Positions 15,543 to 53,428 of a stretch of DNA of 64,000 bases are shown one piece after another. The notes beneath the pieces are model-generated. The model saw only the letters and a program-made list of their open reading frames with translations, was not told where the DNA came from and did no database searches. The position numbers and the translations under genes were made by a program. Positions within the stretch are counted from its first letter, which is position 1, and the number at the start of each line of letters is the position of its first letter. This DNA comes from Candidatus Neomarinimicrobiota bacterium (lineage in GTDB: Bacteria > Fidelibacterota > Fidelibacteria > Fidelibacterales > Fidelibacteraceae), in the NCBI GenBank assembly GCA_021157965.1, contig JAGGVO010000047.1, positions 1 to 64,000 on the forward strand, written 5' to 3'.

Positions 15543-15594
15543 TATAATATAACCTTGCTTTCGTTTCGGTGACAGCGTATTTTATCCCCGGGGG
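15543..15594 (+). repeat. Dispersed promoter-like intergenic element, copy A
   Basis: TATAATAT block (15543), TTGCTT (15555-15560) and TATTTT (15578-15583), followed directly by ATCCCCGGGGG. The same parts with identical spacing recur at 27991, 53377 and, inverted, 45949. The hexamers are 17 bp apart, as in a sigma70 promoter. Both flanking genes converge here, so no protein-coding gene lies downstream in the right orientation. About 35 bp of further similarity with the copy at 53377 (AATAGGA, then CATATAT) follows the core. Confidence 0.75.
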
Positions 15595-15695
15595 TCATTC
15601 AGAATAGGAATTTTCATATATTAAGCAAGTGATTTAATTCAACATATTTAAACAGTAAATCAACCCAAAAAAACCATACTCTGTCAGGACTTATA

Positions 15696-18110
15696 TTATC
15701 GGCTGTTCGTGAAAGTCAGTATATATTTTGCAGATTCCTTCACTTTGTTCATGGTAAAGAAATCCTTCCTGTAATCACCCTTCAGGTACATTTCAGTCTG
15801 ATTCAGATAAAAAGGACTGGCAGGATTTCCCGAGCTTCCCGTAGGGAGAATGACATAACTTTTATCCCAATCAGCAAGATTGTAAATATGGCGCTGTGAA
15901 GCACCGTGATTCACGCTATAAGGATTTGCAAGGCTGTAGGCAAAGGGACACACCGTATGAAAACTGCCCGGTACCGGATAAGACTCCCCATTCAAATGAA
16001 AAACCCTGTCCAGCATTTTCACCGATCCCAGGGGATGGCTGAGGGCCAGAGTATGTAAATCCCCCCACTCCCAGGATTGTGGATCGTTTCCCAGTTTATC
16101 TTCCAGGTCGGCCACGACATCCTGAAATGTCATCCAGATTATATCCTCCAAAGTTTCCTTCGTCCCTTTTGTTTTAATATCATCCACCCAGATTCCACCA
16201 TGATTTTCCCAAATTTTATCTGCGGCATAGCGTGAAAGGTAAGAGCTCCGTGAATATTCCGTAAACAATGAATCTCCCATTTCGTCCAGGAACAAATTCC
16301 GGACCAGGGTAACATAGAAATGATCAAAAACAGCCGGGGCTGCTTCGGAGGCTTCCATTGACCCGGACCAGGTCCGTAAAAGGTTCAGGGCACCGGTCTC
16401 TGAAGGTGTTAACTCTCCCCGGTGGGCATGGACAACCTTCAATAATCCGGGCAGGTAATCCCGTACCATAACAGATTGGTAATCTGTGTGCATACGCATA
16501 AAATCCCGGGTTGAAAGTTTATCTTTGCTGTTCAGCATCTCCCGGATTCTGTCTATCCTGTAATGAAGGGCATACCAATAACTGATATGATGGGGATATG
16601 CTTCATCTGTCGTTTTATTATTTGCTGATGAAATAGTCCCGGTTGAAGGATTAAAACTGTATGGCCGTTCTTCAAAGGGAACAATGCCTTCCCATTCATA
16701 TTCGCCGGTCCACCCCGGCACCACCATGAGTCCGTCACCCTTTTTCCGGATCGGAATGCCTGCACAGGTCTGAAGGCCAATATTTCCGTCAACGTCGGCA
16801 TAAGCAATATTCTGGCTGACGGAAACAAACCCCCTTGCCGCTTCCCGAAAATCATTCCAGTCGTCCGCCCTGTTCAAGGCATACACACCTTCCAGCTCCC
16901 GGCTTAAGTCATATCCAAGCCACTTCATGGTAATTACATCATCACCTGTCCTTTTGAAATCACTGATGACAGGCCCGTGATGTGTAAAGAGAATCGACAT
17001 TTCAATTGGTTTTTCACCTTTGACGGGAATTTTTTCCTTTTGGATTTCAAAAGCCTTCCATTCTCCCTTGAACTCATAAAACTCCGGATTTTCATCCGAG
17101 ACTTTTTCCAGATAAAAATCCATGTCATCCACCATCACATTGGTCATTCCCCAGGCAACGCGTTCATTGTGTCCGGCAATCACAAAAGGCTGTCCCGGCA
17201 GAACAACACCGCTGACATGAAGACCATCCGAAACATACTGGTGCATGGGATACCAGATACCGGGCGAGGACAGCCCCAAGTGCATGTCATTGGCAAAAAG
17301 GGGAGCACCGGTTTCACTTCTATCCGGTCCGACAACCCAATTGTTACTTCCGTGAAAAACAACCACGCCCAAGCGGTCAAGTTTTTGAGTGGCATCCTGA
17401 AGCACAGCACCTATATCCGGCAAATCAGCACCGGAAAGCTCTTCATGGACAACCGAATATTGAGCAGTGATATCCGGGATCAACTCACGGTAATAATCAT
17501 GTCCCAGTTTCCGGCCGATTTTATACAGGATAATTTCTGAGGAATAAGGCATGGTCAAATCCCAGGCCATATACCCGATGAGATTGGCGGAATGGACCGG
17601 CTCCCAGGGTTCCGGTTTATATCCCAGGATAACAAATTCCGGCGGGAGTTTATCCCGGTGGGTTTCTATATAGGCATTCACCCCGGCAGAGAAGGACTCC
17701 AGAGCTGTCAGAATATCGGGGTTTTTTGTGCTTTCAAGAATTTTCAGGCTCTTTTCTGTCATCCTGAGGGTCCGCATCAACAGATCGGTCTCTACAAAAT
17801 CCTTTCCGAATATTTCAGACAACCGTCCCTGAGTCACCCTCCGAAGCAAATCCATCTGCCATAAACGATCCGATGCCATCACATACCCAACAGCCCGGTA
17901 CAAATCGTCCTCACATTGGGCTTCCAATGTAGGAACACCCCATTCATCCCGGTATACCGTAACAGGATTCTCCAGACCCGCGAGAACTAATTCACCCTCT
18001 AAGCGGGGCAAGGCCTGTTTTTTTAGCCGGTTCAGGTAAAGAATTCCACTCACGGCCACTGCAATCACTAAAACAAAAACAATCCATACAAGCTTATGTT
18101 TCAACCGCAT
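15696..18110 (-). CDS. Penicillin acylase family (S45) Ntn-hydrolase
   Basis: Exported amide hydrolase that matures by self-cleavage, 804 residues. An N-terminal hydrophobic segment (about 9-26) anchors or exports it to the periplasm. The alpha chain contains PVTVYRDEWGVPTLEA and GYVMASDRLWQMDLLRR. The expected nucleophile is Ser255 in FHGSNNWVVGP, which would become the beta-chain N-terminus. Further family segments include GVVLPGQPFVIAGHNERVAWGMT and the late GASQRHIYNL. The ATG at 18110 has GGAGGGA at good spacing; an ATG 12 bases upstream lacks one. It stands alone on the minus strand, divergent from the sensor kinase. Likely substrates are N-acyl compounds (penicillin-like, acyl-homoserine lactones or peptides); the sequence does not tell which. 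Confidence 0.9.
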   Translation of the reverse strand: MRLKHKLVWIVFVLVIAVAVSGILYLNRLKKQALPRLEGELVLAGLENPVTVYRDEWGVPTLEAQCEDDLYRAVGYVMASDRLWQMDLLRRVTQGRLSEIFGKDFVETDLLMRTLRMTEKSLKILESTKNPDILTALESFSAGVNAYIETHRDKLPPEFVILGYKPEPWEPVHSANLIGYMAWDLTMPYSSEIILYKIGRKLGHDYYRELIPDITAQYSVVHEELSGADLPDIGAVLQDATQKLDRLGVVVFHGSNNWVVGPDRSETGAPLFANDMHLGLSSPGIWYPMHQYVSDGLHVSGVVLPGQPFVIAGHNERVAWGMTNVMVDDMDFYLEKVSDENPEFYEFKGEWKAFEIQKEKIPVKGEKPIEMSILFTHHGPVISDFKRTGDDVITMKWLGYDLSRELEGVYALNRADDWNDFREAARGFVSVSQNIAYADVDGNIGLQTCAGIPIRKKGDGLMVVPGWTGEYEWEGIVPFEERPYSFNPSTGTISSANNKTTDEAYPHHISYWYALHYRIDRIREMLNSKDKLSTRDFMRMHTDYQSVMVRDYLPGLLKVVHAHRGELTPSETGALNLLRTWSGSMEASEAAPAVFDHFYVTLVRNLFLDEMGDSLFTEYSRSSYLSRYAADKIWENHGGIWVDDIKTKGTKETLEDIIWMTFQDVVADLEDKLGNDPQSWEWGDLHTLALSHPLGSVKMLDRVFHLNGESYPVPGSFHTVCPFAYSLANPYSVNHGASQRHIYNLADWDKSYVILPTGSSGNPASPFYLNQTEMYLKGDYRKDFFTMNKVKESAKYILTFTNSR

Positions 18111-18282
18111 GATTCCCTCCATCTGCTGATTGATAATGAATAAATAAGATTAAACTTTTTTATCTCTGAAGTCAAGATTTGATAACTCTTTATTTCACGA
18201 TATCCCGGGGAAACAACATCACAATTTATTTGGTTCCGTATTTGCGCCTTTCTAAATTGCATAAAAGGAATAAGCTATATCA

Positions 18283-21200
18283 ATGACGCTTCATTCTCTG
18301 ACATCATGCAGGATCCATTGGAAGGATATCGATTTAATATCTTTATGTTCTAAATATGCCCATACGGTTAGAGCTATGACGCGGTTCAATTTTCAGAAGC
18401 ATTGGAAAGAATGCAAAATTATCCTTTTTTCTGTTGTCATCCTTTTCATTGTAGTTGGTGTTGGTATCTTTGGCACTTTATGGCAGGGGCGTATCACAGA
18501 TAATTATATACGGCAAAAACTCACACATCAGGTTCAGGGACTGGCGAATTCCTTGGATAAACAACTCATTAAAGAACTGAATTTTACATTGTCTGACAGC
18601 GCATCTTTTGCTTACCACCGTGTGGAAAACCAATTAAAACATTACGGACAATTAATTGATCACCGCGGTATTTATACACTCGCCTTAACAAACAACACAT
18701 TAAAAATGGGTCCCAACACTATTCCCGGACCCTTTTCATCCAAGGAATTATCACATTTTCTTACCGAAAAAAAACTGAACCCGAAGAATCGCATACGGCT
18801 TTACCAAGGAGAAACCGTTGTCCTTGGTCCCCTGAAGAATTCGGGAAATCAGATACTTACGGCATTGTCTCCTATTCACAATACGAAGACAGACTCCCTC
18901 ATCATGCTTATAGGGATAGATATTTTATACGATACCAATAATAGGGTTTTGATGATGTCCATCGTGATCGGTCTTATCTTTCTGGGTGGCATCATCATCA
19001 ACCTCTTCTGGCGCAAACGCCAGGAATCGCTCCTGCAGTATCTTGAAATTATCATTACGTTCGTTCTGGGCATTTTGTTAACAATGACCATCACATTTAT
19101 GTTTTATAATTATGAGTGTTCGAAACAAAACGAAATTTACAGGCAATTGAGTTCTTCCATTACAAGGGATGTAAACCGCTCATTTGAAACGATCCGAAAT
19201 CATCTGAACAGCCTTGTGAATTTCCAGGAAAACAGTAATTATGTGAACGACGAAGAATTTCGCCAGTTTGCCAAACACCTATTCAATACTTCACATGTCC
19301 GGTTTTATAGTTGGGTGGATTATATTGACCAACCCTCACTCAAATCCTATGAATATCAAATTGGGAAGGAAAAAAAGAGGCCATTCAAAGTCTGGGAGCG
19401 GACTCATGACGGATCTTCCATTCCGGTTGCTCCCCGGAATTATTATTTTCCTGTTCGACAAATAGCCCCTTTTACACCCCACGAAGCGCTGATCGGATTT
19501 GATATTTCTTCGGACCCTTTTCTTAAGGAAGTACTGGATGAGCTGCTAATTACAAAAATGATAACAGCCACAGGAGCTATTCCGAATTATAAAGAAAACA
19601 TTACTTCGGAAACACTATATATTATGAAACCGGCATTCAGACATGCCCATAAAGAATACAAAAGTCCCTTCTTCTGTGATCTCACAGGCATTGCTCTCAC
19701 AGCCCTTAACCTTTCCAGTATTTTACATCTCAGCATCCCGACCTATTCATTGGACGTTGATTCATTAATCTGCATCCATCTTGTGGATTTGGAAGATAAA
19801 GAGGGCCAACGGATTATCACATCGTATATGCCGGATAAACGGACTCCGTATCCCCCGTTTGTGAAAAAGGAAACACTTCGCGGATTTCGGCATTTCAGCA
19901 GTTACCCCCTGTTCATGTTCGGGCGTTCCCTGGCACTGGTCACTCATCCTACCCCGGCTTTTTATAGTACTTTTCCCCTGGGAACAACCCGCCTTACTTT
20001 CATTACCGGTCTGATTATCACGCTGTTTTTGACACTCTTCATCGCCTATTTGAGAAACAGGGAAAACCGCTTGGTTAAACTGGTGGATCAACGAACCCTG
20101 GAACTCCGGGAACGGGAAGAAAAGTACCGCTTGCTGACGGATAATTCCACAGATATGATTTGGTTGATGGATATGAATTACAATTTCAAATATGTGAGTC
20201 CGGCAGTTAAAAAGATGCTGGGATATGAACCAGAGGACATGACAGGCAGAAATATCCGGGAATTCTGTACTAAAGGCCATTTTGAAAAACTTGCCGAAAT
20301 CTTTCAAAAAGCTCTGGAATCCCTGCCGGAAAATGAAGGTCAAACATTCGAGACGGAATTTATTCGCAAAGATACAAAACCTCTGCCCGTGGAAATCGGC
20401 ACCACTCTGCTTTTGGATGATCAGGGAAATCCCATGGGTATTCAAGGCATTACGCGGGACATCACGGAACGTAAACAAGCCGAGGAACAGATTCGAAACA
20501 GTGATCGTATTTTCAACCATGCTTTGGATATGTTGTTCATTGCAGGATTTGACGGATATTTTAAAGTGCTGAATCCTTCCTGGACGCATGTGTTGGGTTG
20601 GAGTAAGGAAGAACTGCTATCCAGACCCTGGATTGAATTTATTCATCCCGAGGACAGAGATTCGACGGAGAAATTCCAGTCAGTGCTGATAAACGGGCAG
20701 GAAATTCGCCAATTTGAAAACCGGTATTTATGCAAAGACGGGACCATTAAATGGCTTGCCTGGAACTCATATCCCTATCCGGAAGAAAAAGTCCTGTATG
20801 GTGTGGCAAGAGATGTCACCGACAAAAAGAAAATTGAGAATAAGTTAAAGAATAGACTGAAAGAACTGGCCTGTATTTCATCGGTTCGCAAGGAAACACT
20901 GCAGAATCTCCCTGAGAAAGACTTTTGCGAGCGTGTAATCCGTCATGTAAAAACAGCCATGCAATTTCCCGGTTCGGTTTTTCCGGTCATTGAACTGGAA
21001 GGACGCATTTACCGCAACGGATCGGCCAATACAGTTGCAAATAAAAATTTACAGGCATTCATCAGGGCCCGGGATGAGGTATTGGGGCGCCTGGTTGTTT
21101 TTTACACTGAAAACAAACCCTTTATCATCCCGGAAGAACAGGATCTGATTAACAATGTAGCCAATACCATCGGTCTCTGGTATGAATGGAAGCGGGCACA

Positions 21201-22368
21201 GGCACGGGAAACACATGCTAAGAAAGTTTTGATGGGCAAACGAAATGTAAATCAGCTGATTATAAAAGAAACGGATAGAAACACACTGGTTGAAAAAGTC
21301 TGCGTGAATCTGACGGAAACTCTCGGCTATCAGTATGCCTGGATTATATTAATTGACAACGAAAATAATTTTCACATTACAAAAATTTCCGGCAAAGGCA
21401 CTTGTGGGTTTAAAGAGTCTTTTAATAACCTAAACGATAACACCCTGCCGGCCTGCATTACAGATATCATTGAATCACGTTCATTTCACATATACCATGG
21501 TTTAGAAAGCGTCTGCAACCAGTGTAAATTTTCTGATAAAGACCCGAACTATGCTGTTTATTCAGCTCCTTTGAGCTATCAGGACAAACTTTACGGCGTA
21601 ATAACAATGGGGGTGCCTTCGGCATTTGCTGAACTGGAAGAGGAACAGATCTTCTTTACTGAAGTGGCCGAAGACATCGGATTTGCCCTGTATAAAATCG
21701 AACTGGAAGAAAAACGAAGGACTTACGAACAACAAATCCTGAAAAACCTGCAGGAAAAGGAAATCCTTCTGCAGGAAATTCATCACCGGGTAAAAAACAA
21801 CCTAAATGTGATTTCAAGTCTTTTAAAACTTCAGGCACGAAAAATCAAGACAAAAGAAGATGCTATCGAAGCCTTTAAAAAGAGCAGCGACCGGGTTCTG
21901 GCCATGGCACTGGTCCATAAAAAGCTGTATGACACGAAAAATATTGAAGCAGTGAATATGAAATCCTATCTGGCCAGCCTGGCCAATCAGTTAGTCTCTA
22001 CCTATGCCCACGGACCCCAAATCAAGGTAAAAAGCGATGTGGAAAATATTGCCTTAAGCATCAACACAGCCGTCCCCTGTGGACTCATCCTCAATGAATT
22101 AATATCAAATGCCCTGAAATACGCTTTTCGGGGAAGGGATACAGGCGAAATCCATCTGAAAGTCTTCTCACCAGATACCGAAACTGTCCAGATAAAAGTA
22201 AAAGACAACGGGGTCGGTTTACCAAAAGGTTTTGATCCTCAGAAAAGTGAGTCCCTGGGTTGTCATCTGGTTCAATTATTAACAGAACAAATCAAAGGAA
22301 CCCTTCAGGTTGAATCGAAAAAATCCCGGGGGACGGTATTTACCATCACATTTCCTCAGAAAGAGTAA
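18283..22368 (+). CDS. Multi-domain sensor histidine kinase (CHASE-PAS-PAS-GAF-GAF-HisKA_2)
   Basis: Membrane sensor kinase of 1361 residues. Hydrophobic segments at about 46-68, 222-243, 253-275 and 570-592 bracket two extracytoplasmic regions. The second (about 285-565) looks like a CHASE ligand domain (YSWVDYI, FPVRQIAPFTPHEALIGFDI). Two PAS domains (about 614-735, 740-850) and two GAF-like regions (about 865-970, 985-1140) follow. The kinase core has the HisKA_2 phospho-site EIHHRVKNNL (H1167/H1168), an N-box LNELISNALKYA and DNGVGLP. No response regulator gene is adjacent. The start is uncertain: neither the ATG at 18283 nor the one at 18376 has a clear ribosome-binding site. HisKA_2 kinases often signal through separately encoded receiver proteins. 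Confidence 0.9.
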   Translation: MTLHSLTSCRIHWKDIDLISLCSKYAHTVRAMTRFNFQKHWKECKIILFSVVILFIVVGVGIFGTLWQGRITDNYIRQKLTHQVQGLANSLDKQLIKELNFTLSDSASFAYHRVENQLKHYGQLIDHRGIYTLALTNNTLKMGPNTIPGPFSSKELSHFLTEKKLNPKNRIRLYQGETVVLGPLKNSGNQILTALSPIHNTKTDSLIMLIGIDILYDTNNRVLMMSIVIGLIFLGGIIINLFWRKRQESLLQYLEIIITFVLGILLTMTITFMFYNYECSKQNEIYRQLSSSITRDVNRSFETIRNHLNSLVNFQENSNYVNDEEFRQFAKHLFNTSHVRFYSWVDYIDQPSLKSYEYQIGKEKKRPFKVWERTHDGSSIPVAPRNYYFPVRQIAPFTPHEALIGFDISSDPFLKEVLDELLITKMITATGAIPNYKENITSETLYIMKPAFRHAHKEYKSPFFCDLTGIALTALNLSSILHLSIPTYSLDVDSLICIHLVDLEDKEGQRIITSYMPDKRTPYPPFVKKETLRGFRHFSSYPLFMFGRSLALVTHPTPAFYSTFPLGTTRLTFITGLIITLFLTLFIAYLRNRENRLVKLVDQRTLELREREEKYRLLTDNSTDMIWLMDMNYNFKYVSPAVKKMLGYEPEDMTGRNIREFCTKGHFEKLAEIFQKALESLPENEGQTFETEFIRKDTKPLPVEIGTTLLLDDQGNPMGIQGITRDITERKQAEEQIRNSDRIFNHALDMLFIAGFDGYFKVLNPSWTHVLGWSKEELLSRPWIEFIHPEDRDSTEKFQSVLINGQEIRQFENRYLCKDGTIKWLAWNSYPYPEEKVLYGVARDVTDKKKIENKLKNRLKELACISSVRKETLQNLPEKDFCERVIRHVKTAMQFPGSVFPVIELEGRIYRNGSANTVANKNLQAFIRARDEVLGRLVVFYTENKPFIIPEEQDLINNVANTIGLWYEWKRAQARETHAKKVLMGKRNVNQLIIKETDRNTLVEKVCVNLTETLGYQYAWIILIDNENNFHITKISGKGTCGFKESFNNLNDNTLPACITDIIESRSFHIYHGLESVCNQCKFSDKDPNYAVYSAPLSYQDKLYGVITMGVPSAFAELEEEQIFFTEVAEDIGFALYKIELEEKRRTYEQQILKNLQEKEILLQEIHHRVKNNLNVISSLLKLQARKIKTKEDAIEAFKKSSDRVLAMALVHKKLYDTKNIEAVNMKSYLASLANQLVSTYAHGPQIKVKSDVENIALSINTAVPCGLILNELISNALKYAFRGRDTGEIHLKVFSPDTETVQIKVKDNGVGLPKGFDPQKSESLGCHLVQLLTEQIKGTLQVESKKSRGTVFTITFPQKE

Positions 22369-22390
22369 GAATCACAAAGCGGAGTCTGTC

Positions 22391-22609
22391 ATGGCAAGAA
22401 AACTTTTTCTGCTTTCTGTTCGCCTTCCCCGCTATATGCTCCGAATTATAGTCTTGTTGCTATTTATACTTTTCTGCCTTTTGCCGGATATGTTATCCGG
22501 CCGTGAAGTTCGTGTCGGCATCTATGAAAATCCACCCAAGGTTTTTCTGGATGATTCAAAGAATCCTCAGGAGATTTTTGTAAACATCATGAATGATATT
22601 GCCCGGTGA
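22391..22609 (+). pseudogene. Decayed remnant of a solute-binding-domain sensor gene
   Basis: A 72-residue frame with a signal anchor (about 15-36) followed by GREVRVGIYENPPKVFLDDSKNPQEI, which is how periplasmic SBP_bac_3-type sensor domains begin. It ends in TGA after NDIAR. Reading on in the +1 frame gives GDKGIHVTIEFPLGNT and another stop, which continues the same domain pattern. The rest of the gene is missing, so this looks like a frameshifted and deleted sensor gene directly after the intact kinase. A small functional protein is unlikely but not excluded. Confidence 0.7.
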
Positions 22610-22691
22610 TAAAGGGATTCATGTGACGATAGAATTTCCTTTGGGAAATACATAGACAGTTAAAATCACTACTCATAACTTCGGATATTTT

Positions 22692-23630
22692 TTAGATAGA
22701 ATTTTTTTCCCAGGGGAGAGTGATATTCATGGTCCGCATCTTTTCTTCAAATTCGTAGCGTTCCTGTTTTTTTTTCAGGATTCCCTGTGCATCCCGCACC
22801 AACCAGCCAAAAGATTCCGCCTTTTCAAGGGCAGCTTCCGGGAGCCCCCTGAGCAGACATGCCAGGATTTCCCGTTCAAGGCGTGAAAATTGTATGGACT
22901 TCATCACATAATCATTGAATGCTTCCCAAGTTACCGGGACCCAGCGGCTTACAATTTCATGGCCTATCGTCAGAGCATAGTCCCGGATTTCTTTTTGAGC
23001 ATTGCTCTCCATCCGGAGTTTGAGAAAATGGAGGAGATTGTGGAGGTCAATCTTCCAGTATGCCTCCGTATAGGTACAGAGGGGTAAGTCCTTTCGTGCC
23101 TGTTCACGGGCAACACCCGCCTCCAGGCGTTTTGAATAGACTTGGCGTGCTAACTGGTGTAATTCCGATTCCTGTTGGCTGAATTCCCGCCCGATCTCCG
23201 GATCAATGAGTCCGGCACTCCCCTGATGGTTTACGGCAGACTGACCGCGCCAGGCATCAGGAGCTGTTTTCTGAGCTGCATTGATAGCAATGGAATAGCG
23301 GGTGGAATATTCATTGACACTGGCCGTTCGGTGGCGTATCCACTGGCGCCAGCAATCCATGGGCACGCGAACATGAAGTTTGATTGAGCACATTTCAAAG
23401 GGACTCGTGTGCTGGTGTCGGAGCAGATACCGAATGAGTTCCCGGTCCCGGCTGACCTTTTTCGTCCCCTTTCCATATGAGACTCTGGCCGCCTGGACAA
23501 TACTGCTATCAGTACCCATATAATCCACAACCCGCACAAAGCCGTCATCCAGTACTTTAAAAGGTTTGCCCAAAATCTCATCCAGAGCTTTGCTGTTAAA
23601 CCGCACCAATTTTTCCATTATTTCTTCCAT
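22692..23630 (-). CDS. thyX: Flavin-dependent thymidylate synthase
   Basis: Makes dTMP from dUMP using methylene-tetrahydrofolate and FAD/NADPH. The ThyX signature RHRTASVNEYSTRYS is intact, followed by conserved C-terminal segments with RWVPVTWEAFNDYV. At 312 residues it is longer than the compact 220-250 residue bacterial type, with an added C-terminal helical tail. I chose the ATG at 23630, which has GAGGAG four bases upstream; a further ATG lies 12 bases earlier and one 12 bases later. It is divergent from nfo. ThyX instead of ThyA fits an anaerobic or microaerophilic lifestyle. Confidence 0.95.
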   Translation of the reverse strand: MEEIMEKLVRFNSKALDEILGKPFKVLDDGFVRVVDYMGTDSSIVQAARVSYGKGTKKVSRDRELIRYLLRHQHTSPFEMCSIKLHVRVPMDCWRQWIRHRTASVNEYSTRYSIAINAAQKTAPDAWRGQSAVNHQGSAGLIDPEIGREFSQQESELHQLARQVYSKRLEAGVAREQARKDLPLCTYTEAYWKIDLHNLLHFLKLRMESNAQKEIRDYALTIGHEIVSRWVPVTWEAFNDYVMKSIQFSRLEREILACLLRGLPEAALEKAESFGWLVRDAQGILKKKQERYEFEEKMRTMNITLPWEKNSI

Positions 23631-23749
23631 CGGTCTCCTCATCCTTTCATGTCCGGGATAAGTTAAGAAAATTCCGATGCGATGGCTTTGGAAATTCTTT
23701 TTTTAATTCCGGGGTTAGCTTTTATATTTTCCTGTAAAAGGAGAAATGC

Positions 23750-24613
23750 ATGAAACCTTATTACATCGGAGCCCACGTAAGTGCAGCAGGGGGTGTGTCA
23801 AATGCTCCCAAAAACGCGGCAGACATCGGTGCTACCGGCTTTGCCTTCTTTACGAAAAATCAGCGACAATGGCACGCCAAACCCCTTGAAAAAGATGAGA
23901 TCACCACCTTCAAGGAAACCTGTGCAGCCCTGAATTTTCCTCCTGAAAGCATTCTTCCCCATGACAGTTATCTGATTAATTTGGGTCATCCGGAAACGGA
24001 CGGACTCCAAAAAAGCCGTGAAGCTTTTCTGGATGAGATGAAACGGTGTGAACAATTGGGATTGGACCGTCTGAATTTTCATCCGGGAAGTCATTTAAGG
24101 AAAATATCAGAGAAAGCGTGCCTTGCCCGGGTTGCAGAATCTGTCAACTGGGTCCTTAACCAAACTGAAGGTGTGATGGCTGTCCTCGAAAATACAGCCG
24201 GTCAGGGAAGCAATATCGGTTATTCCTTTGAGCAATTAGCTGAAATCCTGGATCAGGTGAAAGAAAAGGACCGGGTAGGGATTTGTATCGATACCTGTCA
24301 TGCTTTTGCGGCAGGATATGATCTGAGAACAGAAGAATCCTGCCGGATGGTCTTTGAAGAATTCGACACCCTCATCGGATTTTCCAAACTAAAGGGAATG
24401 CATTTTAATGATGCCAAAACCGGATTGGGTGAAAAAAAGGACCGTCATGAATCATTGGGAAAAGGAACCCTGGGATTAACTGTCTTTAAATTTATCATGT
24501 CGGATGACCGGTTCAGGGGCATCCCCCTGATACTGGAAACCGTCAACCCGGAGATTTGGGCTGATGAAATCCAAATGCTTCTATCCTTTACAAAATCAAA
24601 CAAATCCTCCTAA
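23750..24613 (+). CDS. nfo: Deoxyribonuclease IV (AP endonuclease)
   Basis: Base-excision-repair AP endonuclease with three zinc ions in a TIM barrel, 287 residues, standard length. Visible signatures include [78 protein letters not shown] and the late ILETVNP. These hold the expected His, Glu and Asp metal ligands. AGGAG precedes the ATG. It is the first gene of a + strand run that continues with the CDF transporter after 29 bp. Confidence 0.97.
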
Positions 24614-24642
24614 ATTAGTTCACTTAACACTATGAGGTTCAT

Positions 24643-25530: not shown

Positions 25531-25597
25531 AGAGATGTGGGAGATGGGTGATTTGATAATCAGAGATTTACAAGTTTTTCGGCAATAAGGAGTACAA

Positions 25598-26984: not shown

Positions 26985-27785
26985 ATGCTTTTACGACTCA
27001 TATTAGCTCCGCAAGTTCCGAATTATAGTATTCCAATTAATGTAAATACACAAGTCCGTCATTTGATTCGTTTAGCGACGCGGACATTTCATCGCTATTG
27101 TGATGAAAACATTATCAGGGAACGCCGCTGGCAATCCTTTGACGCATATACTTTTTCACAACTTCATATTCCCAACCGGAAAATCAATGAAAACCGTATT
27201 ATGGGGGGAGAAGAACCAACTACCCTCTTTATTTCATCCCCGGATGTCCAGTTCATCAATTGCCTGGATAAAGTCTTCAAAGAGTGGGAAGTCATTCAGA
27301 TTCAAACAACCCGCTTTACCCTTGTACGGACAGAATTTGAAGAGACAGCGGAACTGGAAGAAGTCCCCCACTTTACCTGCCTTTCTCCTGCCGCTATAAC
27401 CCGACCACAAAAATCAAAAGCCTTCATGTTTATCCTCCCCATGGATTACGACATGAATTATTATCTCACGCAGGCCATGCACAGACGGTATGAGGCCTAT
27501 TATGGTAAAACACTGGAAAAACCTTTTCTCAAGGTAGAATTTGATCCGGATTACGTACTCCGAAAAAAAAGCAAGATTACCAAATTAATCAATATTCATA
27601 AATACGAAGATCTTGGTTTTCTCAAGGTAAAAAGTTTCTTTTCACCCTTGGTTCTCAGAGGAACGCCGGAACTGGTACGTTTTGCCTATGAGGCTGGCCT
27701 GGGAGAATTTACCGATTATGGATTCGGCATGCTTCAACACGTTGTGCCTGATAAATATGCAAAAGGCCGGCGTATTACAACTTAG
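26985..27785 (+). CDS. cas6: Cas6-like CRISPR RNA endoribonuclease, solitary
   Basis: 266-residue protein with the Cas6 layout of two ferredoxin-like folds. The C-terminal glycine-rich loop GLGEFTDYGFGMLQ (about 243-256) is the hallmark of the superfamily, and the N-terminal half (INVNTQVRHLIRLATRTFHRYC...YTFSQLHIP) matches the crRNA-processing type. The normal role is cutting pre-crRNA within repeats. No other cas gene and no repeat-spacer array are visible, so its substrate must be elsewhere in the genome or the gene is an orphan. GGTGAG precedes the ATG. A dispersed promoter-like element lies about 205 bp after its stop. Confidence 0.85.
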   Translation: MLLRLILAPQVPNYSIPINVNTQVRHLIRLATRTFHRYCDENIIRERRWQSFDAYTFSQLHIPNRKINENRIMGGEEPTTLFISSPDVQFINCLDKVFKEWEVIQIQTTRFTLVRTEFEETAELEEVPHFTCLSPAAITRPQKSKAFMFILPMDYDMNYYLTQAMHRRYEAYYGKTLEKPFLKVEFDPDYVLRKKSKITKLINIHKYEDLGFLKVKSFFSPLVLRGTPELVRFAYEAGLGEFTDYGFGMLQHVVPDKYAKGRRITT

Positions 27786-27990
27786 TTGAGTTGAAAGTTA
27801 ATAGTGAAAAAAATGGGGTTGGCGTTTTAAGTTGAGAGTGTGTGAAGAGAAAAGGCAGAAATTATTATCAACTGTTTTTGGGTTAATCAGCAATGAAACC
27901 TCTTGATTTGTCATCCGTTCTTTTTTTCTCACCTGTCCCATAACCGCTTTCCGGTAAAAAGCATACTTATATAAAATATATAATATGATT

Positions 27991-28042
27991 TATAATATTA
28001 TTTTGCATTTATTGATTTTCGTCACTATTTTATCCCCGAGGG
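27991..28042 (+). repeat. Dispersed promoter-like intergenic element, copy B
   Basis: TATAATATTA at 27991, TTGCAT at 28003-28008, TATTTT at 28026-28031, then ATCCCCGAGGG. Spacing is identical to the other three copies. It lies between convergent cas6 and PPDK genes. A transcript starting just after the TATTTT would meet the terminator at 28084-28122 after about 80 nt, compatible with a small RNA. The rest of the gap (27786-27990) is AT-rich, with a degenerate TTGAGTTGAAAG-type low-complexity stretch next to the cas6 stop and no coding signal. Confidence 0.75.
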
Positions 28043-28083: not shown

Positions 28084-28122
28084 ATAAAAAAAGAGCCTTT
28101 GATACCAAAGGCTCTTTTTTTA
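28084..28122. terminator. Bidirectional terminator between cas6 region and PPDK
   Basis: An 11-bp perfect stem, AAAGAGCCTTT (28090-28100) with AAAGGCTCTTT (28107-28117), has A-runs on the left and T-runs on the right. It can terminate PPDK on the minus strand and any transcript from the left. Confidence 0.92.
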
Positions 28123-41846: not shown

Positions 41847-41862
41847 GACAGAATAGCCGTTT

Positions 41863-44516: not shown

Positions 44517-44532
44517 CTTTTTATCTCCCTTA

Positions 44533-45474: not shown

Positions 45475-45897
45475 GGTACCTCCATATTTTCCGTACATAA
45501 CATCGACTTTCAGAAGAATTTCCTTTTGACAACGCATGGGGAATTTACAGTTATGCCCGTGCATTTTTTTCAGGATAATCTTCATCCCCGACCGTATTCC
45601 TGCGGGAAACAGCCTTAATATCACTTATGTCACGTTCGGTTTGGGTTCCCTCCCGTGCCCGAAGCGTGAAATAATATAAGGACAAGAGTTGATAGTGAAA
45701 AGAAAAACGTTTGAACGTTGAGAATGTGTGTGTCAGGAGATAGGTAACAGTTTTATGTCAAAAGATAGGTAACACTTTTTGGAAATATGGTAACCATAAT
45801 TCCGGTTTATGTCATACAATTATTTTATATATAGAAATTTGATTTATAGATAATGGGAGAAATCAAGTATATGGTTTCGGTGATGTGCTCGCCCCCT
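45475..45897. other. Long non-coding leader/intergenic region upstream of the fatty acid cluster
   Basis: No convincing gene on either strand. It contains a degenerate low-complexity stretch (45688-45727, GTTGATAGTGAAAAG then GTTTGAACGTTGAGAA) that resembles the sequence after cas6, and the direct repeats at 45731-45774. If the promoter-like element at 45898-45949 drives the operon, this would be a 5' leader of about 425 nt. Confidence 0.6.
45731..45774. repeat. 19-bp direct repeats resembling an insertion-sequence end
   Basis: TGTCA(GG/AA)AGATAGGTAACA occurs at 45731-45749 and 45756-45774, period 25 bp. A degraded third unit (GGAAATATGGTAACCA) follows at about 45781. Such tandem TGTCA...GGTAAC units remind me of the termini of integrase-type (IS481-like) elements. 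No transposase gene is nearby, so at most this is a relic or solo end. Confidence 0.5.
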
Positions 45898-45949
45898 ACC
45901 CCGGGGGTAAAATACACTCATTCCCAGTTTAATGCAAGTTAATATTATT
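45898..45949 (-). repeat. Dispersed promoter-like intergenic element, copy D (inverted)
   Basis: Read on the minus strand: AATAATATTA from 45949, TTGCAT, then TATTTT (45914-45909) followed by ACCCCCGGGGT. Spacing equals the other three copies. It points towards the fatty acid cluster, whose first ATG is about 425 bp downstream. An AT-rich block (45950-45990) extends the UP-like region. Confidence 0.75.
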
Positions 45950-46080
45950 AATCATATATATCACGTGTCTTATAATATGTTTCCATTCACCCATCAATCA
46001 AATGATTCAATCTGATCAATGCACCATGCCGTTTTTACTAAAAGCCTGTCCCAATAGGACTTTTGATTCTGTAAATGAAG

Positions 46081-46104
46081 AAAGGACGGTTAAAACCGCC
46101 CTTC
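46081..46104 (-). terminator. Terminator of the SurA-like lipoprotein gene
   Basis: AAGGACGGTT (46082-46091) pairs with AACCGCCCTT (46094-46103); the internal A/C on the plus strand becomes a G-U pair in minus-strand RNA. T-rich sequence follows on the minus strand. It lies about 30 bp after the stop. Confidence 0.75.
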
Positions 46105-46131
46105 CCTTAACTCAAAATTCAAACTCACAAC

Positions 46132-47151
46132 TTAAAACTCTTTAGAATAATTATATTTTTCCTTGAGCTCTTCCAATTTGGCTTCAATCGCAGCATTCCG
46201 GAGTGATGAGAGTTCATTTTCCCGAAGTGAATCGCGGACCTCTTCAAAAGGTCGTGTTTCGGATTTTCGGTCCAGAATCTTGATAATATGATATCCGAAT
46301 TGGGTCTCTACGATATCTGTAATTGATCCGACAGGTTCTGTAAAAGCAGCTTCATCAAATGCCGGGACCATCTGTCCACGGGAAAAATTCTCATAAAGTC
46401 CGCCCCTCTCCTTGGAACCGGGATCTTCTGAATACTCTTTTGCCAACTCGGAAAAATCTTCTCCGGAGCGGGCACGTTTGAGAATTCCTTCCATTTTCTT
46501 CCGGGTTTCTGCCTTCTCTTCAGAATTCTGTCCCTGTGTTGAAAGCAGTATATGGCGGACTGATGCAGATACCGGCTCTTTATAAGCTTCCCGCAGGACT
46601 TCATCCGGGACTTCTATTTCAGGGTCAATGACTTGTTCCAGATAGGCCTGGAAAATCAATCCATCACGAATGTCCTGCCGGACCATATCCATGGTAAATC
46701 CCTGGGTCTCAATGTAATTTTTGAATGCTTCCTCTGAACCGCCAAAACGGGGGTTGGACCAGATTTGTTCCAGTTCAGCCTGGATATCTTCCTCAGGAAC
46801 CTCGATCCCCTGATCAGCAGCATCTGCCATAAACATATTTTTGTCCGCCAGGGAAGCCGCTACCTGATTGATATAATTGATAATGTGCTCGAAAGGAACC
46901 TCCGTTATGTCCAACTGTCCATTGACAGCCCGATAAAGTTCCGGCATGACATCATAATTGGTGATATTTCCACAATCCATGGCGATCAGTGTGACTTTTT
47001 CATCCGGATTCAGTACCGGAACAGTATCCGCCAGTGATTTGAAAAATGTATATTCCGGGGCACTTTTCGAGTATAATACGTCCCCGGAGTCCTTGCTGCA
47101 ACCTGCAATCAGCGCAAAGATGACCATCGATACAATCAAGATTTTTTTCAT
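46132..47151 (-). CDS. SurA/PrsA-like peptidyl-prolyl isomerase lipoprotein
   Basis: 339-residue periplasmic chaperone. The lipoprotein signal ends LIAGC (Cys18). A helical SurA-N-like region (about 90-185) precedes one parvulin domain (about 195-300) with VRHILLSTQ, FSELAKEYSEDPGSKERGG and FGYHIIKILDRK. The lipid anchor suggests attachment to the outer membrane's inner leaflet, unlike soluble E. coli SurA. AGGA precedes the ATG. Separated by 96 bp from miaA. Confidence 0.9.
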   Translation of the reverse strand: MKKILIVSMVIFALIAGCSKDSGDVLYSKSAPEYTFFKSLADTVPVLNPDEKVTLIAMDCGNITNYDVMPELYRAVNGQLDITEVPFEHIINYINQVAASLADKNMFMADAADQGIEVPEEDIQAELEQIWSNPRFGGSEEAFKNYIETQGFTMDMVRQDIRDGLIFQAYLEQVIDPEIEVPDEVLREAYKEPVSASVRHILLSTQGQNSEEKAETRKKMEGILKRARSGEDFSELAKEYSEDPGSKERGGLYENFSRGQMVPAFDEAAFTEPVGSITDIVETQFGYHIIKILDRKSETRPFEEVRDSLRENELSSLRNAAIEAKLEELKEKYNYSKEF

Positions 47152-47247
47152 TGTAATTCCTTTTTGTTTACATTAGCGATGAAAAATACAATATAACGGC
47201 TCAAATAACAATTCGAGATTTGGCTGGATAAAATTAACAGCCTCATT

Positions 47248-48105
47248 CTAATACCGCTTTAACATTTTCTTGTTCCAGGTTATTTGTTTTTTTGCATATT
47301 GCCGCGTCCGGATATTGATCCAGTGCTCGGCGTCTTCCAGGCTGTACTCTCCCCGGACATGGGCGATCATCTCTTTGTAACCAACGGTATTCAGGGCATT
47401 AAGTGAGGGACTGTATCCTTTGTCCAGCAAACAACGGACTTCCCTTTCAAAGCCCTTTTCAATCATACGCCGGGTCCTGATTTCAATACGACGCCATAAC
47501 TCTTTTCGGGGAATATCCGTGACAATAAAACGGTATTTCCAGGGGAAAGACTTTTCCTGGGACGCAAAATGTTCACTTGGTGTTTTCCCCGTTTGTTCAA
47601 TGATTTCCCAAGCCCTTGATATACGGCGGATATTGTTGGAATCTGTTATTCTTCCATATTCCGGGTCAAGTTCCTGCAACTGCTGCCACAGGATATGCCA
47701 ACCTTTTGTTTCACCTCTCTGGCGGATTAACTTGCGTATTTCAGAATCTGCTTTTTGCCCTTCAGGGATAAAACCCAGCATGGCCTGGATATACAAACCA
47801 CTACCGCCACAGACGATAACAGGACGCTTTTCTTTCATAAAAGTGTCAATCAATTTCCGGGCATCTCGTCCAAATTTACCGGCACTGTAAGTCTGGGTGG
47901 GATCCAGAAAATCCATCAGATAGTGAGGAATGCCTTTCTGCTCCTCCGGGGTGGGTTTTGCTGTGCCAATATCCATGTATTTGTAAACCTGCCGGCTGTC
48001 AGCAGATATAATCACCCCCTTCATTTCCAGGGCCATACGGACAGCCAATTCAGTTTTCCCCGAAGCAGTGGGACCTGTAACAATGACGAGTTCCGGTTGA
48101 TTCAT
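47248..48105 (-). CDS. miaA: tRNA dimethylallyltransferase
   Basis: Adds dimethylallyl to A37 of tRNAs reading U-starting codons, 285 residues. P-loop GPTASGKTE at the N-terminus, then ISADSRQVYKYMDIGTAKP and HYLMDFLDP, all diagnostic. It is slightly short at the C-terminus compared with about 310 but ends cleanly with RTRQYAKKQITWNKK. The ATG overlaps the stop of the CPBP gene (ATGA). mutL-miaA proximity is common in bacteria; here a large membrane gene lies between them. Confidence 0.96.
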   Translation of the reverse strand: MNQPELVIVTGPTASGKTELAVRMALEMKGVIISADSRQVYKYMDIGTAKPTPEEQKGIPHYLMDFLDPTQTYSAGKFGRDARKLIDTFMKEKRPVIVCGGSGLYIQAMLGFIPEGQKADSEIRKLIRQRGETKGWHILWQQLQELDPEYGRITDSNNIRRISRAWEIIEQTGKTPSEHFASQEKSFPWKYRFIVTDIPRKELWRRIEIRTRRMIEKGFEREVRCLLDKGYSPSLNALNTVGYKEMIAHVRGEYSLEDAEHWINIRTRQYAKKQITWNKKMLKRY

Positions 48106-51100
48106 ATTTTGTTCTGTCTCACTCTTAAATAGAGGCTGAAAAGAAAAGCAATGATTAAAAGTCCCGCCAGGACCAGAGATTCAGCTATTAAAACATCCGG
48201 ATATCCTTCATAGCGGATTTGGGTATATGCATAGGCAGCGAAAAAGGGGAAAATGGCAAAGGGTATCGCTGAGGGCATTGCCCGGAAAACAACCCGGTAT
48301 ACCCAGGCGGACCAGAGAAAAAGCACCAATCCGGATCCGAACCAGCTTATCTGTGTATCCATGAAAAAGAGAGCTGATAGACCGAATCCGGTGACGAGAA
48401 ATGCAAGATATCCATAAGCTCGCTTGCGGACTCCACCTCCTGTCAGATGATCTACGCCACGAAAGAGTATCATGAACAATATACAGATGATGGAAAAAAC
48501 CCATATACGCATAACAAGGAGATGCATCAGGGGGATTCGGGCATTGAGTGCTGAATAATCGGCCCAGACCGGATTATAAAAGGTCAGCCTGCTTTGAACC
48601 AGTACCAATATGCCCAATCCCCACAGACCGGCCGATAAACCTACCCACCGCGATGGCCGGTCCCGCATGTGGTCCGATTTGTAATCACGTATTAAAAATA
48701 AAAACAGGGGCAGACAAAACGCCATCACCAGACTGCGGATTACACCAAAGGCAATTGTACGGAATATCTGTCCTTGCAATGGCTCAGCCGGATTCAGGTT
48801 AAATCGGGTGACCGGCCATGTATTCCACATGTGAAAGAGACCTGCCAATAAAACAATACCCCCCAGGATAACCCAAACTTTTTTAGGAAACTGATCATGA
48901 GTTTCTTCCTGATAAGCCGAAACAGCCATTATAATAAGCAGGATGAACAGTAACACTACAGACAGGATTTGAATCAGACTCAGCAGGGTCTCCCGGTTCC
49001 GTTCTTCCCTGTCCCATTGTTCCGGAATATGAATGTAGCCCGGATTGTAGCGACTCACTTCATTTCCGGAAATCGTCACATTCAGGCGGCCTTCTCCTGC
49101 ATTGAGGGGATATCGCAGTGTATCGGCCCATGTAAAGGTCCAATCTGTACGATTCGGCATCTTTTGGGGGATGACGGATATTTTCTTCAGTAAAAGGGGA
49201 TCGAGACCCAAACGGGCACGGAGGAAGGCATCCGCTTTTTTTTCAGCGTCCTTTTCGGAGAGCGAGGGGGCGGGGCGGGCTTCCGGCAGGCGGTGGATGA
49301 AACGGCGGACTTCGCCATCCCCCACAACATGAATTTTAAACTCTTCAGCCCTTTCCGGCACTTCACCGGAGAAGCGTGCATAGCGGATAACCCAGCCGGG
49401 GCCGGAAAGGAATGTCCCCATGAGTTGCCGGTACCCCGTTTCACCACCGCTCTGCCGGGCGAAGCGGCCCTCCCGTTCCTGTGGTATCACTACCCGTTCA
49501 CTCACCATCCACATACTGTCTGCCAACTCAAAACCCCGCTCAGCAAGAGCCGCTTCGGAGGCCCTCCGGGCCTCAGCCCGCCCCACTCTTAATCCGGAAT
49601 CCTCATTTTCAAAGGACGTATAATGATACCAGATCACAAGGAAAAAAAGTCCGAAAAGAAATAAAAATCCCCTGGCCATGGGTGTAATCTGCCCGGTTTT
49701 CAAAGGCAATTCAGGAGGTTTTTCTTTTTTAAGGACTTTCACGACATGTTTGCCATTCAGATATGACGCTTTGATTTCTTGTTTTCCAAGTCTCAACCGG
49801 TGAAAAAAGATAATCCCCAGGGGAAAGAGGGTCAGCAGGATGACCAGGGTCCTGTGTACTCCGCTTCCGGGGGCGGAGGTATTGAAGAGTGGCAGGGAAA
49901 TCCACACCACATCATATACAAAATGCAAAATCACTCCGGGCAGGAGGCCATAATGAAGATAAAGGAATCCGAAGGCCAGAGACGGAATAAAGAGTTCCAC
50001 AACCCGGGCAAAGGCAGGCTGATTCGCATAGGAAGCATGAGCTGCCCCAAAAATCAAGGCCTGGAGCACAAGGGCTCCACCAATCCACCATTTTTTCCGG
50101 CCAAACCTTTCCCCAAGAAGGGCTGCTCCGGCGAGAGGTATGGCCCTGAAAAGGGCTTCCTCCCAAAATCCGGCCTGGAGGGAAATTGCCAAAGGATTCA
50201 ACGAGGGAATAATATGGGCCAGAATATTGGGATCATAGAGAGGACTGGCAGGTGACCACCAATTCCAGTAGCGGGTCGCAACAATATAGAAAATTGTGGA
50301 AAAACCAAAAAATATCCCCGTGGACAATAAACCGATCCAGGTCTGTTTATGAATTTCACCTGTCGCGGCAACAGGTCCGTTCCACACTTTCCAAAGGCAT
50401 ATTTTCCGGGGAAAAGCCATGCGGGTCAGACCTTCGGCTACTGCAAAGGTCAGGGTCATCACAAAAGCCAGAACCATTCCCAAGAGAATAAAGTCAAAAA
50501 TCTGTTGGAACACAAAATTGTTCTTTGACAGGGCTGTATCGTAATTCATCCAGATCAGAGGCCATTGATTAAAAAGGGCCGCAATCTGAAGGACGGCAAT
50601 CCCTCCGCCCCAATACAGAGCAGGTTTCCATTTAACGGCATGTCGTTTTAAAAGGGTGAATAATCCTGCCAATCCGCCCACACCCAGAAAGAGGAACATG
50701 GCCACCAATCCCACATTTGAAATGGTCCGGTTTGCTGCCCGCATATTTTCGTATCGCAATCGGAAGGCTTCCGGCACTTCGACATATCTCTTTATCTGAG
50801 TGACGGTATTCCCGGTGACTGTAAAACGAATCCGATACCGACCATCCTTTCCCAGGGTAATATCCGGTCGTTCATAGACAAAAACATGATCCATCCTCCC
50901 ACCGGGTTTTATTTCCGACGAGACTTCCACTTCATTATAAGCATGAAGTGGAACATGATAACTTTTTGATAGTCCGGCGACCAAAGACCGCGCTTCTGAT
51001 TCGGAAAGGATTTCTCCGGGATTATCCTCCGGGACCTTCTCATAGAATCCATAAACCTGTCCGCCGGGAGTCAGACGGACCAGAAATTCTTCATCCTGAC

Positions 51101-51434
51101 GTTCCCGGAAAAAGCGAACAAGCCAGGTATAGGGTTCATAAAGGGTATCTGCCAGCATTTTCCCGAAAGCTTCTTTTCCGCCGGCTTCCAATTCGGTATA
51201 GTACTGCACTTCCCGGTCCAGATCAAAGCGAACGGCAGTCTGCATGCCGCTTACAGAAAATCCACGGGATTCTGCGGTTTGCTTTGCAATTCTGACAGCT
51301 TCTTCCCTATCTGTATTCACCTGAACATTCACAACGGGAAAGGCATCGGTAAACTTCAACCACGCATAAGCACTTCCTAAAACAAAGAGGGTGATAAAAA
51401 GGGACCAAAAGAGAAGCGATTTATTTTTTATCAT
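48102..51434 (-). CDS. Giant CPBP-type intramembrane metalloprotease with duplicated soluble domain
   Basis: 1110 residues with a repeating plan: helix, soluble domain (about 40-225), several helices containing the CPBP (Abi/CAAX-like) active site, a second copy of the soluble domain (about 617-805), then a second helix bundle. Active-site residues are Glu425-Glu426 (FWEEALFR), His466 (FGAAHA) and His504 (LHFVYD). Both soluble domains start with an AxxxA...ERGF helix and read like PepSY-type repeats. The second helix bundle lacks EExxxR. The ATG at 51434 has AGGGAAA upstream, 11 bp after mutL. The function is unknown; known CPBP proteases cleave prenylated or signal-like peptides. Confidence 0.82.
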   Translation of the reverse strand: MIKNKSLLFWSLFITLFVLGSAYAWLKFTDAFPVVNVQVNTDREEAVRIAKQTAESRGFSVSGMQTAVRFDLDREVQYYTELEAGGKEAFGKMLADTLYEPYTWLVRFFRERQDEEFLVRLTPGGQVYGFYEKVPEDNPGEILSESEARSLVAGLSKSYHVPLHAYNEVEVSSEIKPGGRMDHVFVYERPDITLGKDGRYRIRFTVTGNTVTQIKRYVEVPEAFRLRYENMRAANRTISNVGLVAMFLFLGVGGLAGLFTLLKRHAVKWKPALYWGGGIAVLQIAALFNQWPLIWMNYDTALSKNNFVFQQIFDFILLGMVLAFVMTLTFAVAEGLTRMAFPRKICLWKVWNGPVAATGEIHKQTWIGLLSTGIFFGFSTIFYIVATRYWNWWSPASPLYDPNILAHIIPSLNPLAISLQAGFWEEALFRAIPLAGAALLGERFGRKKWWIGGALVLQALIFGAAHASYANQPAFARVVELFIPSLAFGFLYLHYGLLPGVILHFVYDVVWISLPLFNTSAPGSGVHRTLVILLTLFPLGIIFFHRLRLGKQEIKASYLNGKHVVKVLKKEKPPELPLKTGQITPMARGFLFLFGLFFLVIWYHYTSFENEDSGLRVGRAEARRASEAALAERGFELADSMWMVSERVVIPQEREGRFARQSGGETGYRQLMGTFLSGPGWVIRYARFSGEVPERAEEFKIHVVGDGEVRRFIHRLPEARPAPSLSEKDAEKKADAFLRARLGLDPLLLKKISVIPQKMPNRTDWTFTWADTLRYPLNAGEGRLNVTISGNEVSRYNPGYIHIPEQWDREERNRETLLSLIQILSVVLLFILLIIMAVSAYQEETHDQFPKKVWVILGGIVLLAGLFHMWNTWPVTRFNLNPAEPLQGQIFRTIAFGVIRSLVMAFCLPLFLFLIRDYKSDHMRDRPSRWVGLSAGLWGLGILVLVQSRLTFYNPVWADYSALNARIPLMHLLVMRIWVFSIICILFMILFRGVDHLTGGGVRKRAYGYLAFLVTGFGLSALFFMDTQISWFGSGLVLFLWSAWVYRVVFRAMPSAIPFAIFPFFAAYAYTQIRYEGYPDVLIAESLVLAGLLIIAFLFSLYLRVRQNKI

Positions 51435-51444
51435 GGGATTTCCC

Positions 51445-53274
51445 TTAATTTCTTTCGAACCGGCGGTCCAGTTCATTCAGCGTAAACCTGATAATAACCG
51501 GTTTGCCGGAAGGGGAAAGGTAAGGATTTTCCGTTTGAAACAGTTCGTCTGTAAGTCTTTGCATTTCAGCAGGTGTCAGCTCTTCACCCCTGCGGACAGC
51601 CGCTCTTTCGGCATAGGCCAGGGCAATTTTTTCACTGACTGGATTATGCAAACGCCTTGAGTTTTTATAATCATCCAGAATCTGCAAAACAACTTTTCCT
51701 TCCTCAAGCCACTGTAAATCTACCGGGATTGCTTCAATAAGGATTGAATGCCTGCCAAATTCCCGCATGGAAAAGCCCAGCTTTTCCAGAGACGGAACAA
51801 TCTCCAGGAGGATGGAATAATCGTCAGGTGAGAGTTCCAGGGTTATGGGAAAAAGAAGCTGCTGGCTGGCAGAAGACGAAGCCTGTTCCAAAGCTTTGAT
51901 GGCCCTGTCGTAGAGAATGCGGGTGTGGGCTGCCCGCTGATCAATCACAACCACGCCGCTGGAAATTTGTGTAAAGATATACCTTCCATGGGCCTGCCAG
52001 AAATTCCGTTCGGTCAGAAGCGGGTGTGTTTCGTCCGGGACACTCTCTGTAATGCTTTTTTCAAAACGGCGAATCCGTTCATCCAGCGAGAGATTTGCAG
52101 CGGAAAATGAGGGTTTTTCAATCCCCTGAAACGGTTTATCTCTTTCAACCTTTTCGGAAAACGAAAGCTGTTCCCCTTCGAGCCTGGGAGGAGCCGTTAC
52201 ATGTACCGGACGTTCTCCTGAAAAAAAATCCCGATCATTCAATTTTCCGGATTGACTGTTTTCCATTGATTCTCCTGTCCAATCCCGGATAGCCTGTTCA
52301 CAACTCCGCCGGACAAATTGATATATCTGCCACTCACTTCTGAATTTCACCTCTGTTTTTGCAGGATGGACATTGACATCCACTTCTGCAGACGGCAGCG
52401 TAAGAAAGAGAACAAAAAAGGGAAATTCACCTTTATCCAGATGTCCACCAAAAGCTGAATAAACAGCACTGTTCATCATGCGATCGGTTACAAGGCGTCC
52501 ATTTACATAAAGATACTGTTCACCACTTTTCCGCCGGACCAGTTCCCGGGTGCCGATAAACCCTTTAAGAACCAGGGGCGGTTCTTCCTCGTAAACGGTG
52601 ATACAATTTTCCGTCAAACGTTTTGAAAAAATCCGGTTTAACCGTGAGGATAAGTCCTCCGGCGGCAGGATGTAGACATCCTTTTCATTGGCTGTCAGAT
52701 GAAAACGTATGTGGGGTCTGGCCAGGGCAAATCGCCGGACGATTTCCACAATATGGCGATATTCCGAATTTGCCGATTTAAGAAATTTTTTTCTTGCCGG
52801 TATATTAAAAAAAAGATTTCGTACAGTTATGGATGTCCCACGTTTCATGGCGGCGCCTTCCAGCCGGTCAACTTTTCCGCCATTGATCAAAAGCCTGAAT
52901 CCTTCACCCGTTTCGTTATTACAGGTTCTGGCGTCAACTCGTGATACGGAAGCTATACTGGCAAGAGCCTCTCCCCTGAACCCTAATGTTTTAATTGCAG
53001 TAAGATCTTCAATATCAAAGAGTTTACTTGTAGCATGTTGTTCAAAGGCCAGCAGGAGATCATCCCGCTCCATTCCCTCTCCATTATCGGCTACACGGAT
53101 CAGCTCACGTCCTCCATCTTCAATCTGAATTACAATTTCCGTTGCTTTTGCATCCAGACTGTTTTCAATTAACTCCTTAACGACAGAAGCAGGTCTTTGA
53201 ACCACCTCCCCGGCAGCAATGCGATTACTTAACGATTCCGGCATGATTTGAATGACAGGCACAGGATTCTCCAT
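51445..53274 (-). CDS. mutL: DNA mismatch repair protein MutL, endonuclease motifs degenerate
   Basis: 609 residues. The GHKL ATPase is intact: ENSLDAKAT, DNGEGM, GFRGEALASI, and the later VNGRLV and NVHPAKTEV. The C-terminal dimerisation domain is present, but the nuclease motif expected as DQHAxxExxxxE reads DQRAAHTRILYD (445-456), and the final C-P-H-G-R-P metal motif reads SPSGKP (587-592). The cysteine and acidic ligands are therefore lost, so this MutL probably lacks nicking activity. First gene of the operon with the CPBP protein and miaA. Confidence 0.95.
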   Translation of the reverse strand: MENPVPVIQIMPESLSNRIAAGEVVQRPASVVKELIENSLDAKATEIVIQIEDGGRELIRVADNGEGMERDDLLLAFEQHATSKLFDIEDLTAIKTLGFRGEALASIASVSRVDARTCNNETGEGFRLLINGGKVDRLEGAAMKRGTSITVRNLFFNIPARKKFLKSANSEYRHIVEIVRRFALARPHIRFHLTANEKDVYILPPEDLSSRLNRIFSKRLTENCITVYEEEPPLVLKGFIGTRELVRRKSGEQYLYVNGRLVTDRMMNSAVYSAFGGHLDKGEFPFFVLFLTLPSAEVDVNVHPAKTEVKFRSEWQIYQFVRRSCEQAIRDWTGESMENSQSGKLNDRDFFSGERPVHVTAPPRLEGEQLSFSEKVERDKPFQGIEKPSFSAANLSLDERIRRFEKSITESVPDETHPLLTERNFWQAHGRYIFTQISSGVVVIDQRAAHTRILYDRAIKALEQASSSASQQLLFPITLELSPDDYSILLEIVPSLEKLGFSMREFGRHSILIEAIPVDLQWLEEGKVVLQILDDYKNSRRLHNPVSEKIALAYAERAAVRRGEELTPAEMQRLTDELFQTENPYLSPSGKPVIIRFTLNELDRRFERN

Positions 53275-53376
53275 ACTTTTATTGCAAAAAGGAAATTACG
53301 GTTAAAGAAATGAGAATTCAAATGTGAAAGAAAATTGTCAGATACCGTTTATATCAGAATCACATAATATTTTATT

Positions 53377-53428
53377 TATAATATTAATTTGTTTTTGCTT
53401 ATTCCCCTTGTTATTTTATCCCCGGGGG
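53377..53428 (+). repeat. Dispersed promoter-like intergenic element, copy C
   Basis: TATAATATTA at 53377, TTGTTT at 53389-53394, TATTTT at 53412-53417, then ATCCCCGGGGG. It lies between divergent mutL and queH and points to queH, whose ATG is 145 bp downstream. Similarity with the copy at 15543 continues past the core (AATAGGA, CATATAT). The remainder of the 298-bp gap shows no other feature. Confidence 0.75.

Follow-up and report, generated by a model that had tools for sequence, protein, structure and literature searches.

A dispersed, rigidly spaced and promoter-shaped intergenic element in a genus of Candidatus Neomarinimicrobiota

Element copies within the window and family architecture

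The stretch of DNA analyzed here (the window; 64,000 nt of the 2.3 Mb Candidatus Neomarinimicrobiota genome G000) contains four copies of an intergenic element, starting, as first delimited, at 15543, 27991 and 53377 on the forward strand and at 45949 on the reverse strand, with a TTG-initiated hexamer 12 bp and a TATTTT hexamer 35 bp past that start. The initial annotation, from which these positions, strands and distances derive, was borne out in all of them, and the gapped pattern TTGnnT-N17-TATTTTAYCCCCGRGG matched the window four times versus 0.05 times expected from shuffles, even with three mismatches allowed.

Copy 1 lies between the convergent PmbA/TldD and penicillin amidase genes and consists, on the forward strand, of an upstream AT block ATATATTAATTATAATATAACC (15533-15554; columns -22 to -1 of the family alignment), a -35-like TTGCTT (15555-15560), a -10-like TATTTT 17 bp past the latter (15578-15583), the tract CCCCGGGG (15586-15593), the first G of which (~15590) is the predicted transcript start, and a downstream block ATAGGAATTTTCATATATTA (15604-15623) delimited by ortholog and family alignment. 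Copy 2, likewise on the forward strand and, just as had been noted for it and copy 1, between convergent genes (those of Cas6 and PPDK), has its AT block at 27981-28002 by family alignment and TTGCAT-N17-TATTTT-AT-CCCCGAGG at 28003-28041 by pattern match. The Cas6 gene (26985-27785) is directly upstream of it, and past it, still between cas6 and ppdK, the fold and terminator scan placed a forward-strand terminator-like hairpin with a T-run (28085-28121), which is also found at the corresponding locus of the sister species G004 and is not general to the element family. Copy 3, of the B type and on the reverse strand, occupies a codirectional gap (AT block at 45938-45959 by family alignment, TTGCAT-N17-TATTTT-ACCCCCGGGG at 45899-45937 by pattern match, and a downstream CATATA block at 45868-45873 recognized from sequence and family alignment), while copy 4, on the forward strand between the divergent mutL and queH, comprises an AT block (53367-53388; family alignment), TTGTTT-N17-TATTTT-AT-CCCCGGGG (53389-53427; pattern match) and a downstream block ATAGGATATTTCATATATATT (53438-53458; sequence and family alignment). 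Elsewhere in the window, at a gene end, a tandem array of AAACGTCT (8-bp unit, 11.6 copies) spans 3385-3477.

The blocks originally described all proved to be present, but the real element is longer than had been proposed, its AT block beginning 10 bp further upstream and an additional block following CCCCGGGG after some 22-26 bp. In full, about 90 bp are involved: a 22-bp AT block, TTG(C/A), 17 bp, TAT(T/C)TT, A(Y)CCCCGGGG and, 22-26 bp further on, a TATATA block. With the T of TTG taken as position 0, the family alignment gives ATATATnAAwAATAATATwATC for positions -22 to -1, TTG(C/A)wT from 0, TAT(T/C)TTA from 23 and (T/C)CCCCGGGG from 30, whereas spacer positions 7-22 are nearly unconstrained (save for a weak GG near 19-20); past CCCCGGGG, class A copies read GnnnnnnnnATArnnnTTTTCaTATATTA and class B copies TGGGGGGCGnTACCTAAnCGAAATCATATATC. 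The hexamers are separated by 17 bp in 143 of 144 copies of the non-redundant sequence and by 16 bp in the remaining one, no other length being seen, and the AT block abuts TTG at a single fixed offset in 139 copies. Element scores over the 1.6 Mb examined of the 2.8 Mb G004 genome, plus the window, are bimodal, with copies at 34 or above and nothing between 15 and 34, which, together with the fixed geometry, indicates one discrete family rather than the tail of ordinary promoters.

Spread within the genus and position relative to genes

The further genomic copies that had been anticipated do exist: 40 sites with no more than two mismatches to the gapped pattern were found in G000 (none in the reversed control), the curated alignment raising this to about 45 copies, and each of the five further species examined in the genus carries the element, in 9 to ~77 copies. 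An exact scan of ~85,000 GTDB genomes returned matches in four MAGs only, all of them Neomarinimicrobiota (46_43, DJKA126, STD1_216 and UBA6817). Family-wide scans of other genera revealed no element except for one match in each of two g2 genomes, none was detected at a permissive score in 169 kb of G006 or 111 kb of G009 from sister genera, and the remaining sampled part of the phylum had none either. A phage origin was rejected, as none of 2.9 million viral contigs matched exactly, and a literature search found no description of the element. What emerges is a discrete, genus-specific, promoter-shaped DNA element.

Convergent gaps are enriched in copies relative to intergenic length (26/59 in G004, p = 1.6e-4), divergent gaps are avoided, and most copies face the 3' end of a gene; a gene is overlapped by one weak copy only (score 34.6), the gene in question having been called by a simple home-made gene finder. 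It is highly improbable that the copies serve adjacent genes or stable RNAs as promoters, whether ordinary or under stringent control: some do sit 130-250 bp upstream of same-strand genes (e.g., smc and queH), but in codirectional gaps the element is sense in 24 cases and antisense in 26, and the inspected tRNA and rRNA upstream regions hold no copy and have a different discriminator. The orientation counts, the enrichment in convergent and avoidance of divergent gaps, and the ordinary, mutually unrelated neighbouring genes, among which no functional theme was found, exclude a promoter role for neighbouring protein genes as a class. A polar chromosome motif was rejected as well, the element strands being mixed on both replichores, and a role as a substitute for terminators at convergent ends did not reach significance (5/52 vs. 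15/66, p = 0.08).

Promoter resemblance and the search for an RNA product

The sigma70-like layout initially read into the element agrees with the promoters of the genus itself. In gene upstream regions, with the element excluded, TTG[AC]nn-N17-TAnnTT occurs 48 times in sense versus 18 times in antisense orientation, with a peak at exactly 17 bp, and the -35 boxes of the tRNA and rRNA genes are TTGC or TTGAC, so the hexamers of the element match the organism's own syntax; the hexamer variants that the family allows (TTGACA, TATCTT and TATATT) are promoter-like too. The near-invariant spacer and the highly specific AT block are, however, unusual for ordinary promoters (the tRNA promoters of the genus mostly having spacers of 16-18 bp).

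Stringently controlled rRNA and tRNA promoters with an UP element, to which the initial annotation had likened the copies, share with them an AT-rich upstream block, a TTGC/TTGAC -35 box and a GC-rich start region, but this kinship gained no support. Most tRNA/rRNA promoters of the genus (as seen in G004, including the 16S promoter in L205) share a conserved GGCTTTTTGA just past the -10 box, where the element carries CCCCGGGG, and their spacers vary, those of the tRNA promoters mostly fitting 16-18 bp; the CCCCGGGG region, fixed spacer and flanking blocks are therefore peculiar to the element family. As the sequence downstream of the element yielded no stable RNA and the discriminator differs, its identification as a stable-RNA promoter was rejected.

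The copies might instead drive a family of small RNAs, as had also been suggested, for which the promoter layout and a conserved stretch reaching about 50-55 nt past the predicted start (in both the ortholog and the family alignments) would speak. Alignment of the downstream regions, however, revealed no common or conserved RNA sequence beyond ~55 nt, terminators follow 9% of the copies versus 12% of controls, and there is no Rfam match at the element sites. Neither the DNA nor the RNA of the element folds better than shuffles; the sole exception is the RNA of copy 2, and its hairpin corresponds to the terminator of the cas6-ppdK pair further downstream. With neither fold nor terminator, the conserved object is the DNA, and the small-RNA explanation, which we consider quite unlikely, was rejected.

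Conservation, proposed function and comparison with known repeats

Both flanks could be placed within the examined part of G004 for 31 of the G000 copies, and at 23 of these 31 sites G004 has a copy as well (4/4 for those of the window); several positions are common even to G001, the most divergent species of the genus compared. Across 14 orthologous G000-G004 pairs, identity amounts to 83% in the AT block, 100% in TTG, 98% in the -10 hexamer and 90% in the discriminator, versus 55% in the spacer and 36% in the upstream flank. Spacers of non-orthologous copies are only 31% alike, which marks the pairs as true orthologs and not as products of recopying. Blocks that are kept while their neighbours have drifted are the mark of purifying selection on separate sites, unlike what a neutral fossil repeat would display, and of the two causes proposed earlier for the preserved spacing, selection or a shared mechanism, selection is thereby upheld: judging from these alignments, copies are kept in place by purifying selection at orthologous positions.

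As for what is being selected, we would give somewhat less than an even chance to the reading that best accommodates the sequence data, namely that this is a genus-specific dispersed family of rigid sigma70-type promoter modules, spread by DNA duplication, in which initiation itself, or the docking of RNA polymerase or another protein, is the selected trait. The 22-bp AT block would be either UP-like or bound by a putative dedicated protein, and the TATATA block would lie at about +25 to +30 past the predicted start at CCCCGGGG. The housekeeping RNA polymerase may bind the element and initiate short non-coding RNAs that carry a G-run at the 5' end and in many cases head for a gene whose 3' end faces the element; alternatively, polymerase could be held at the site by a putative protein on the two flanking AT blocks. 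Selection would then keep the act of initiation or docking and not the RNA product, with the insulation of gene ends or the organization of the chromosome as the leading ideas of its benefit, new copies coming about via DNA duplication. The absence of a functional theme among the neighbouring genes counts against this explanation, as do the spacer and AT block, which are atypical of ordinary promoters.

A somewhat unlikely alternative is that the element is a non-transcribed binding site of a nucleoid-associated, partition, topoisomerase or other architectural protein contacting rigidly spaced blocks, its promoter resemblance being incidental. The rigid geometry over ~90 bp, the extra blocks on either side, the convergent-gap enrichment and the lack of orientation bias relative to genes would all suit such a site, whereas the coincidence of hexamers and 17-bp spacing with the promoter consensus of the genus, and the promoter-like hexamer variants, argue against it.

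Dispersed bacterial repeats are usually taken to be selfish or to serve as hairpin sites; in this case, every copy of the family is a promoter-shaped module, kept by selection across species and indifferent to gene direction. Should transcription start at the element, the family would clearly exemplify bacterial non-coding initiation sites under selection; should it not, the element would point to an undescribed sequence-specific chromosomal protein. It is conceivable, albeit doubtful, that the family represents a new kind of chromosomal element, i.e., a dispersed, host-maintained site of initiation or RNA polymerase docking that ignores gene direction and whose function (gene-end insulation or chromosome organization) depends not on an RNA or protein product but on the act of initiating transcription or capturing polymerase.

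New copies arose by DNA duplication, given that species-specific subfamilies share even the otherwise free spacer (e.g., TTGCATTGTGTCGCATTTCGGTG, found many times in G004), and some subfamilies have recently grown in copy number within species. Copies of the B type are often located within long intergenic stretches built from short word-like repeats, and they also often form inverted pairs on either side of 7-12 kb. In G004, intergenic regions L189:5682-7483, L194, L155 and L165 are mosaics of 7-8-bp word-like repeats (GAAGTTG, CTGTCGA, GGTTCAAG) and palindromic 21-mers, and the mosaics include a 233-bp tandem array with a unit that starts from the element -10 and has neither -35 nor AT block. 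At G004:C1 1684163-1693022, 1752798-1764497 and 2285312-2297912, inverted repeats of 300-770 bp with B-type elements flank 7-12-kb gene blocks and could mediate inversions.

Correia-type and other MITE repeats can carry promoter-like sequences, and the mobile promoter-bearing repeat envisaged at the outset finds part of its expectations here, in the lineage-specific subfamilies with a shared spacer, the embedding of B copies in larger repeats and inverted pairs, and the avoidance of gene 5' ends. That the element is nonetheless a non-autonomous, MITE-like repeat carrying its promoter by chance, with copies persisting from insertion and inheritance, seems unlikely, as orthologous copies hold their blocks while spacer and flanks drift. 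Its ends share only a short, self-complementary TATATA motif and no convincing terminal inverted repeats, target-site duplication or linked transposase were found, nor was a clean-boundary empty site, the copies missing in G004 being located within larger indels that are rich in other repeats. Correia-type and other MITEs (reviewed in PMC10969869, PMC2229807) resemble the element in being ~100 bp long, intergenic, present in tens of copies and expanded lineage-wise in subfamilies, but differ from it in that its promoter geometry is the entire element and its blocks are under selection.

REP/BIME sequences are, like the element, dispersed, extragenic and conserved, with a preference for the 3' ends of genes and for convergent gaps, but the element lacks their palindromic hairpin. 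A REP/RAYT link was rejected, Y1 (RAYT-type) transposases occurring in each of the three genera that make up the family, the sister genera without the element included. Although it lacks the defining features of REP elements and shares only part of the MITE ones (near-identical dispersed copies within a lineage being present), this family has its closest known kinds in REP elements and small intergenic repeats of the MITE/Correia sort.
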